Assembly (NCBI RefSeq): GCF_001299475.1
Contig: NZ_CYUJ01000002.1
Span: 434,001-498,000, forward strand
DNA from: Neofamilia massiliensis
GTDB lineage: Bacteria; Bacillota; Clostridia; Tissierellales; Peptoniphilaceae
Length of the DNA: 64,000 nucleotides
Reading direction: 5' to 3'
Below are positions 20,741-44,498 of the stretch, piece after piece. Within the stretch, counting starts at the first letter, position 1. Each line of letters begins with the position of its first letter. The notes beneath the pieces were generated by a model, which saw nothing but the letters and a program-made list of their open reading frames with translations, had not been told where the DNA came from and searched no databases. Position numbers and translations under genes: made by a program.

Positions 20741-20746
20741 TACTTT

Positions 20747-20944
20747 AATTGGCGATGAAGAGAAAGAGTAGCTGAGAAGTTTTTTATAGAGAGCAAATGG
20801 CTGGTGGAAATTTGTAAAAGACCTTGGTGAAGACATCTTGGAGCAAAAGGTTTGAAACCGCCTAAGGTTTTATAAGCTGGGATATTTTTATCCAATTAGG
20901 GTGGCACCGCGATTTATTCGTCCCTTAGAGAGGACGATTTTTTT
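20747..20944 (+). promoter_or_regulatory. T-box leader (tRNA-Asp-sensing riboswitch) of aspS
   Basis: The leader contains the near-invariant T-box sequence AGGGTGGCACCGCG (20898-20911), whose TGG pairs with the tRNA acceptor end. It also has the stem I elements AGAGAG and GGCTGGTGGAAA (distal loop), and a putative specifier loop with GAC (20832-20834), an Asp codon, matching the aspS gene downstream. The transcription attenuator is clear: TCGTCC ctta-gaga GGACGA followed by T7 (20918-20944). Uncharged tRNA-Asp should stabilise the antiterminator and switch aspS on. The specifier position is read by eye from the leader and the gene identity. Confidence 0.92.
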
Positions 20945-43540: not shown

Positions 43541-43569
43541 TTGCAAATTTTAAAATAAAAAGCTATAAT
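43541..43569 (+). promoter_or_regulatory. Promoter of the YitT leader
   Basis: TTGCAA (43541-43546), a 17-bp spacer and TATAAT (43564-43569). It predicts a start near 43576 and therefore a leader of about 280 nt. Confidence 0.75.
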
Positions 43570-43575
43570 ATGAAC

Positions 43576-43843
43576 AGTTGATTTAAGTATTTTACGGTGG
43601 TTACCGAAATTTTCAGGTAGTTTTTATCTGATGCTAAAGTTTACGACTGTAGAGCCTTTTATCTGCCTGATGTGGGAGATAAAAAAGCTAAAAAGTGACT
43701 ATTACGCTCAGAGTTTTTACAAGAAAAAATCAGCAAATAAAAAAGCATCAACACCACGAGATTGCAAGAGTACGAAGGCTATCCTTACGACCGACAGCAG
43801 TCTTTTTTGTTGGTCGGATACCTTCTGATATTGCAAAATATTA
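43576..43843 (+). ncRNA. Long structured 5' leader of the YitT-family gene, class unknown
   Basis: About 280 nt separate the promoter from the YitT ATG, with no credible gene. Pairings seen by eye: a small hairpin CGGT-ggtt-ACCG (43595-43606); CAGGTAG (43614-43620) with CTGCCTG (43663-43669); AGCCTTTTATCT (43653-43664) with AGATAAAAAAGCT (43677-43689), mutually exclusive with the previous pairing; and a long hairpin at 43775-43826 built of GAAGG/CCTTC, TATCC/GGATA and GACCGAC/GTTGGTC, with T6 in its loop. Alternative pairings and a long hairpin before AGGAGG are what a riboswitch or attenuator would show. I could not match it to T-box, lysine, SAM, TPP, guanidine, c-di-AMP, fluoride, Mg or Mn classes. 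Confidence 0.55.
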
Positions 43844-43856
43844 AGGAGGTGTAAAA

Positions 43857-44498
43857 ATGCTAAATCAAAAGCTGACTTGGTTTAAATTAACAAGAGCAGG
43901 ACTAATTAATATTATCTTAGGGTCTATGATTATGGCTTTTACAGTTGTAAATATCCATATCCCATCTCAAATTACAGAAGGTGGAATCCTAGGCCTGGCC
44001 TTACTTGCTTATAAGACCTTTGGCATTAACCCATCTATCCTAAGTCCAATAATGGATATTATCTGTATTATTATTGGCATAAATATTTTTGGAAAGATAT
44101 TTTTAAGAAGGACCATGGTTGCTTCTTTATTGTTTGCATTTTCCTATAAAATATTTGCTCTTATGGGCCCAATTCTTCCTAACCTTTATAGCTATCCACT
44201 TTTGGCAGCTGTAGTTGGAGGAATCGGAATTGGACTTGGCTGCGGCCTTGTAGTATCCCAAGGAGGAGCATCAGGTGGAGATGACGCCTTGGCCCTTGTT
44301 ATTTCAAACAAGGCTAAGATAAATATTTCTTATGCCTACTTATTAATGGACGTAATTGTCTTATTAATGTCTTTAACTTATATTCCCTTTGGCAGATTAA
44401 TTTTCTCTCTAATAACTACAACAGTTTCATCTGTTTTAGTAGGACAATTTGAGATTAAAGTTTCTAGCCCAGTGGAAGAAACAAATCTTACAATTTAA
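43857..44498 (+). CDS. YitT-family (DUF161) membrane protein
   Basis: This 213-aa integral membrane protein has about six hydrophobic segments. The pattern IHIPSQITEGGILGLALLAY, then GLGCGLVVSQGGASGGDDAL, is the DUF161/YitT signature with its GG-rich reentrant-like motifs. Transport substrate and role are unknown for the family. It lacks the C-terminal DUF2179 domain found in full-length YitT proteins (about 280 aa). An AAGGAGG site precedes the ATG. The gene forms its own cassette with leader, promoter and terminator. Confidence 0.82.
   Translation: MLNQKLTWFKLTRAGLINIILGSMIMAFTVVNIHIPSQITEGGILGLALLAYKTFGINPSILSPIMDIICIIIGINIFGKIFLRRTMVASLLFAFSYKIFALMGPILPNLYSYPLLAAVVGGIGIGLGCGLVVSQGGASGGDDALALVISNKAKINISYAYLLMDVIVLLMSLTYIPFGRLIFSLITTTVSSVLVGQFEIKVSSPVEETNLTI

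Follow-up and report, generated by a model that had tools for sequence, protein, structure and literature searches.

A terminator-linked leader RNA upstream of a YitT gene in Peptoniphilaceae and Aerococcaceae, most likely an orphan riboswitch

In Neofamilia massiliensis, the leader that separates the YitT gene from the pyruvate kinase gene raises a simple question: does it form an RNA that regulates the gene and, if so, by what means? We analyzed it within a 64,000-nt stretch of the genome (the window, whose positions serve as coordinates). An initial annotation of this DNA had described an unclassified structured leader, possibly a riboswitch, transcribed from a TTGCAA-17-TATAAT promoter and placed before a YitT-type gene. 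The promoter is indeed present (Table 1), its -10 box ending 288 nt 5' of the ATG at 43857, and a consensus scan of the + strand from 43570 to 43857 detected no other promoter-like site. The downstream gene matches PF02588 (YitT_membrane) with an E value of 1.1e-31 and 110.3 bits, against a Pfam gathering cut-off of 24.3, and its product is closest to Peptoniphilus proteins (86% identity). Moreover, the leader folds better than 200 of 200 dinucleotide shuffles (z -3.54).

When 61 genomes (the genome itself and relatives) were searched at the DNA level, matching leaders appeared in nine further genomes at E below 1e-7, all nine directly 5' of a YitT homologue. With a covariance model built on these ten sequences (R1), we found the RNA in 42 of 130 Peptoniphilaceae genomes, one true copy per genome, under Infernal's stricter filters, which were used in all multi-genome searches and may lose weak copies; a second match in one genome (G002, E 0.0075) was judged a chance hit. 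Applied to the whole order (249 genomes), the same model returned the same 42 and none further, and from 398 genomes sampled across the phylum it recovered the genome under study and one match judged to be chance (G416, E 1.9e-4). A later model (R2) matched four of 291 genomes in a class sample, all four in the same family. Sampling the order to which Globicatella belongs gave 6 of 295 genomes, and its family, Aerococcaceae, gave 10 of 76, the six being included among the ten. Five phylum matches of a third model (R3; 348 genomes; G416, G588, G343, G326 and G387, E 9e-4 to 0.01) were likewise judged chance, and none of these loci carries the YitT sequence motif, CTGATGTG or CTCAGAG. Scanning named genomes for exact patterns yielded 44 contigs, 38 of them with the full RNA; in the others (L077, L082, L085, L091, L092 and L107) the model matched a fragment at most, and these were set aside as chance. 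The named carriers comprise Peptoniphilus, Anaerococcus, Aedoeadaptatus, Finegoldia magna, Murdochiella, Levyella and Urinicoccus and, unexpectedly, Globicatella and Eremococcus (Aerococcaceae, Lactobacillales). Finegoldia, Peptoniphilus and Anaerococcus are common human-associated anaerobic cocci. No match was found in plasmids or phages (blastn, E 0.01), nor in viral contigs (exact pattern).

In both families the RNA accompanies the same gene. YitT lies directly downstream in 41 of the 41 Peptoniphilaceae copies whose contig continues (leaving out L041, whose contig ends 45 nt past the RNA, and with the YitT of L058 and L065 assigned by protein search), and it is the next gene in 10 of 10 Aerococcaceae genomes. 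Conversely, a protein search (E<=1e-20) located this YitT in 51 of the 130 family genomes, 42 with the RNA and nine without, and in the 79 genomes lacking it no RNA was found (R1, stricter filters). G134, which is among the 42, additionally carries a partial YitT match that lacks the RNA; when this locus and the nine RNA-less loci were searched with the filters off, no RNA was detected, the best score being 12.9 bits. In a protein tree of 48 rows, the Aerococcaceae YitT proteins fall into two separate groups, as the starred branches force, and the RNA-less proteins appear in three places. These groupings suggest that the RNA-gene pair was probably transferred between Peptoniphilaceae and Aerococcaceae at least once, and that it probably underwent loss or replacement on more than one occasion. 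How many transfers there were is uncertain, because several end branches are long and the Globicatella-Eremococcus group carries a long-branch warning.

To what extent is the RNA structure itself conserved? In an alignment of 52 sequences (A9; 50 distinct, pairwise identity 0.46 to 1.0, median 0.70), 92.3% of cells are paired and compensatory changes occur in 27 of 38 pairs, figures to be read with A9 having been fitted, using R2, to a model of this very structure and with related rows being non-independent. Compensatory cells number 238, as compared to 79 from shuffling, none of 500 shuffles was as high by any measure, and the signal was lost when partners were slid by 1 to 3 columns. In the first, unfitted MAFFT alignment of the ten sequences, both-sided changes were seen in 11 of 34 predicted pairs, and the RNAalifold covariation term was only -0.07 kcal/mol. 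Thus the structured leader is borne out: homologous leaders covary, which was the test that the annotation had named, and the fold exceeds the shuffled controls. The annotation had further proposed a mutually exclusive switch in which CTGCCTG/CAGGTAG opposes TTTTATCT/AGATAAAA. The latter pairing is real (43657-43664/43677-43684) and overlaps most of the covarying P5 hairpin. The former (43663-43669/43614-43620) can be written, yet other pairing is conserved, and we dropped it because CAGGTAG is mostly the 3' strand of P2 and CTGCCTG lies in P5 and its loop.

Table 1. Features of the leader and its gene (window positions), with the regulators found beside RNA-less relatives (positions in the named loci)
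Feature	Position	Strand	Details
Sigma-70-type promoter TTGCAA-17-TATAAT	43541-43569	+	10/12 consensus matches
Conserved RNA core (aptamer-like domain)	43594-43758	+	Model R1 match, 154 bits; length ~165 nt
P1 5' strand	43596-43601	+	Pairs with 43753-43758; compensatory changes in 4/6 pairs; outermost pair a G-G mismatch in the window copy
P2 hairpin	43602-43619	+	43602-43607 with 43614-43619; compensatory changes in 6/6 pairs; loop length variable; inner two pairs mismatched in the window copy
U-rich conserved strand GUUUUUA	43620-43626	+	Alignments and consensus
P3 5' strand UCUGA	43627-43631	+	Pairs with UCAGA 43708-43712; 98.8% of cells paired; compensatory change in 1/5 pairs
P4 5' strand	43640-43644	+	Pairs with 43695-43699; compensatory changes in 5/5 pairs
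P5 hairpin	43654-43688	+	43654-43656 with 43686-43688, 43660-43664 with 43677-43681, 43666-43667 with 43674-43675; loop UGAUGU 43668-43673; compensatory changes in 10/10 pairs
P6 hairpin	43713-43730	+	43713-43718 with 43725-43730; compensatory change in 1/6 pairs
GCAUCA, likely pseudoknot strand	43745-43750	+	Pairs with P5 loop UGAUGU 43668-43673
P1 3' strand	43753-43758	+	
Intrinsic terminator	43758-43808	+	GAGAUUGC 43758-43765 with GCAGUCUU 43797-43804; interior CGAAGG/CCUUaCG 43773-43789; U-run 43803-43808
Post-terminator hairpin	43762-43836	+	43762-43778 with 43821-43836
Shine-Dalgarno AAGGAGG	43843-43849	+	
YitT family membrane protein, 213 aa, regulated gene	43857-44498	+	PF02588 match
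MerR regulators beside RNA-less YitT	L170 1754-2563; L171 6345-7145; L176 5771-6577; L178 3234-4040		

P3 and P6 are almost invariant, one P6 pair changing from U-A to C-G in 7 of the 50 distinct rows. Conservation reaches at least 97% at 46 positions, many of them in predicted single strands, and such invariant, putatively unpaired positions would be the usual mark of a binding pocket. Of note, in four Aerococcaceae loci (L123-L126) the U-rich strand is shortened to GGUUUAUC or GGGUUUAUC and the P6 hairpin is altered too, parallel changes hinting at a possible contact between the two.

The strand GCAUCA near the 3' end of the core has two possible partners. It can pair with the P5 loop, forming a 6-bp pseudoknot in which 99.7% of cells are paired, or with UGAUGC at 43629-43634, a rival helix in which 92.3% are. 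The rival helix served as the first P3 and as the basis of R1, and was replaced by UCUGA/UCAGA plus the pseudoknot. Its 5' strand is altered in L062, L067, L068, L069-L072 and L120-L122, loci in which GCAUCA (or ACAUCA) and the P5 loop remain complementary. One-sided variants of the pseudoknot also keep their pairing (UGAUGU/ACAUCA in Eremococcus, UGAUGC/GUAUCA in L129). Given its higher paired fraction and the variation in the rival's 5' strand, we prefer the pseudoknot, which is likely but not proven: no pseudoknot pair shows a both-sided change, and L129 suits both helices, the rival gaining a compensatory A-U pair there (columns 79-218). The L129 copy (1501-1658, 40 bits) is a decayed or highly divergent one, still positioned before YitT, in which a clear terminator is absent and both the pseudoknot and the rival helix can be paired.

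The core is promoter-proximal across the alignment, with a -10-like hexamer (at least 5/6) no more than 50 nt upstream of it in 49 of 52 sequences and 12-28 nt before it in 48, perfect TATAAT occurring in 24. Since shuffled controls reach 5/6 in 60% of cases (and a perfect -10 in 12%), the weight rests on the perfect boxes and on the constant distance. At its other end, starting at the foot of P1, we identified a Rho-independent terminator that the initial annotation had overlooked. A script detected the stem and U-run in 48 of 52 sequences, the exceptions being L041 (contig end), L043, L044 and L122 (interrupted U-run). The conserved form is present in 45 of 52, a count that leaves out L039 and L040 (another stem, with a probability near 0) and L129 (a weak stem). 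Its arms co-vary between lineages (AGAUUGC/GCAGUCU, AGAUUGC/GCAAUCU, AAGAUAG/CUAUCUU and AAAAGACG/CGUCUUUU).

The annotation had also noted a 17-bp interrupted hairpin with T6 in its loop just before the ribosome-binding site. This hairpin exists; its T6 (43803-43808) doubles as the terminator U-run, and hairpin and terminator are mutually exclusive, making these two, rather than CTGCCTG/CAGGTAG, the actual alternative structures. Downstream of the U-run, 39 of 48 sequences have a segment with more complementarity to the terminator interior than dinucleotide shuffles give at p<0.05, and 31 of them reach p<0.01; for the ribosome-binding region the corresponding numbers are 19 and 5. In these counts related rows are non-independent, and the start codon is misplaced for L123 and L124. 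The hairpin cannot decide termination, since its 3' arm is transcribed only once the U-run has been passed. It could remodel read-through transcripts, and in some species it may perhaps free the ribosome-binding site.

How, then, might the core communicate with the terminator? Partition-function folding of 48 sequences revealed no upstream antiterminator, and the only conserved competitor of the terminator that we found is the segment downstream of the U-run. The terminator folds at a probability of at least 0.89 in 46 of 48 sequences, whether the core is constrained or free, and any thermodynamic coupling is therefore invisible. A classical switch, by extension of P1 into the terminator arm, was rejected as well (p<=0.05 in only 1 of 52 sequences). 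P1 and the terminator abut, with few nucleotides between them, and so steric or stacking competition between the two is possible.

Nine relatives have this YitT without the RNA. In four of them (G010, G099, G122 and G123), a divergent MerR gene faces YitT, and the YitT promoters read TTGAC(A/C/T)-19-TAT(T/C)AT (spacing by eye), the 19-nt spacers (at L170, L171, L176 and L178) containing a dyad. Such a spacer is the long spacing typical of MerR-type promoters. Each of the four proteins has a MerR_1 match together with a match to a GyrI-like ligand-binding domain, which clears the Pfam cut-off in three cases and narrowly misses it in the fourth. The other five RNA-less YitT genes have no such adjoining MerR gene in the stretches that we viewed by eye. 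MerR proteins usually activate transcription on binding their effector, and the MerR/GyrI-like regulators thus hint at small-molecule induction.

The reading that we favor, and consider probable, is that the leader is a cis-acting regulatory RNA outside the classified families, most probably an orphan riboswitch class, and that it governs a single YitT gene by premature termination. The core would act as a sensor feeding the terminator: a small molecule or ion may bind the invariant single-stranded positions and stabilize P1 and the pseudoknot, which would in turn alter the frequency of termination, and the segment after the U-run could dismantle the terminator in read-through transcripts. As for the direction, ligand-induced read-through (an ON switch) seems little better than an even bet, and is favored because the terminator folds by default and some relatives use a MerR/GyrI-like regulator. 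The opposite arrangement, an OFF switch in which the ligand favors the terminator, as for an importer of that ligand, is a variant of the same explanation and less likely than not, its chances overlapping with those of that explanation. Ligand-repressed control is common logic among uptake genes, and terminator and folded core are compatible; against this, the terminator forms unaided by the core in 46 of 48 sequences, and the regulator type found in some RNA-less relatives belongs to a class that usually activates.

We regard as rather improbable that the leader binds a protein, or that it acts on RNA polymerase as a processive antiterminator of the EAR or put kind. EAR and put RNAs are processive antiterminators that act on RNA polymerase and serve long operons or phage genomes. 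The leader resembles them in being structured and lying 5' of a terminator, and its large single-stranded stretches are highly conserved; the lack of visible base-pairing competition between core and terminator is what a polymerase-acting RNA would show. It differs in serving a single short gene rather than a long operon, homology to EAR and put having been judged by Rfam scans alone. Moreover, its presence in two distant families, always with YitT, is as expected of a self-contained sensor, and at 33 of the 38 named RNA-bearing loci, inspected by eye from the first residues of the neighbors, no neighbor recurs throughout and no candidate RNA-binding gene recurs. Two upstream genes recur locally, one of 368 aa at five related loci (L079, L080, L081, L097 and L098) and one of 687-701 aa at three (L104, L112 and L116), which we read as lineage synteny.

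Could the RNA instead belong to a known riboswitch class, diverged so far that the Rfam models miss it? Some classes do vary widely. However, the window RNA matched no Rfam 15 family at the gathering threshold and nothing credible at E up to 10, and scans of 36 loci, covering 27 distinct copies including the window's own, found no Rfam family overlapping the RNA at that threshold (in 20 of these loci, none at E up to 0.5), in agreement with the earlier label of unclassified. With so conserved a core, a known consensus ought to be detected, and we consider this possibility very unlikely. Outside the RNA, L069 gave a subthreshold match in these scans, and a fluoride riboswitch was detected next to the RNA in both L123 and L124. 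The T-box model (RF00230) had no match at the YitT leader; a T-box leader lies elsewhere in the window (20746-20928, + strand, 118.5 bits). Attenuation of YitT by a translated leader peptide deserves hardly any credence: the annotation's statement that the leader holds no gene needs qualifying, as a 65-aa ORF crosses it (43631-43828), and an AUG lies inside the conserved CUGAUGUG, but neither of two candidate frames is conserved among 45 sequences, the distance from that AUG to the conserved CAGAG motif being in frame 0, 1 and 2 in 13, 10 and 22 of them and the ORF from that AUG spanning at most 10 codons in 26. The open-licence PMC literature held no paper pairing YitT with a riboswitch, no riboswitch candidate paired with Peptoniphilus and, among the matches listed, no description of this RNA.

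Taken together, these results define a new RNA family, predicted to have a probably pseudoknotted core and a terminator platform, linked to one YitT subfamily in all checked copies and spread over two bacterial orders; as such, the leader is more interesting than the initial annotation claimed. Transcription-terminating riboswitches of Firmicutes include the fluoride/crcB, yjdF and purine types. The leader is similar to these in its promoter-proximal core, which has several helices, bases that are invariant in single strands and a likely pseudoknot, in the terminator that directly follows, and in its control of a probable transporter gene; unlike them, it has a core that no Rfam model matches, and the only conserved terminator competitor found lies downstream rather than upstream of the U-run.

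Dedicated regulation of such a gene has a parallel in the DUF161 protein YczE, a YitT-related membrane protein without known function, which is predicted to be controlled by YczR (PMC4944035). As described there, YczR is a MocR-type (PLP-type) DNA regulator found mainly in Actinobacteria and Gammaproteobacteria, whereas the control described here would be exerted by an RNA in cis, or by a MerR/GyrI-like protein in some RNA-less relatives. Mutations in YitT have been listed, among many others, in mycoplasmas selected with macrolides or pristinamycin (PMC10240068, PMC13148045), a weak lead. No substrate of YitT was found, consistent with the annotation's remark that none is known and with Pfam, which labels the YitT_membrane family uncharacterised. 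The AlphaFold model (mean pLDDT 80.2) had no Foldseek match in the PDB at E<=0.001, and its best VIA-align hit, the ECF S-component 5edl (Z 5.0, rmsd 5.9, 128 aligned), had unrelated helical proteins within 1 of its score, so that neither comparison points to a structural relative.

A bolder version of the riboswitch reading, which we hold tentatively and at slightly less than even chances, is that the RNA represents a new class of riboswitch and that its ligand induces a YitT subfamily of exporters and is probably also their cargo. RNA and gene would form a mobile cassette that moved between anaerobic cocci and Aerococcaceae, and in some relatives the RNA would have been exchanged for a MerR/GyrI-type sensor. 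The GUUUUUA strand, AAACAAAAAA (an A-rich strand) and the pseudoknot would make up the pocket, which may contain U-A-U triples. Independently of this version, a self-contained RNA sensor of ~165 nt before one YitT subfamily provides an in vitro handle on the role of YitT, and the MerR/GyrI-like regulator of some RNA-less relatives is a protein sensor in its own right that perhaps responds to the same signal.

Several metal-related genes and fluoride riboswitches lie near these YitT genes, too few to name a ligand. In one genus, a P-type ATPase gene (E1-E2) is divergent from the RNA-less YitT (L172 3568-5550, L173 3521-5461 and L174 711-2627, - strand; assigned by Pfam on L172 and by similarity on L173 and L174), the proteins of L172 and L173 having His/Asp-rich N-termini. 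A ZIP-type metal transporter gene adjoins the MerR-linked YitT at L176 (4196-4972, Pfam) and L178 (1635-2411, by similarity), and a gene that looks similar by eye is convergent to an RNA-linked YitT at L108 (5632-6408). Lastly, in two Aerococcaceae genomes a fluoride riboswitch (L123 1794-1876 and L124 1795-1879, + strand) precedes a probable cation/proton antiporter gene, so named from our own reading of the sequence, in a unit divergent from the RNA-YitT unit.
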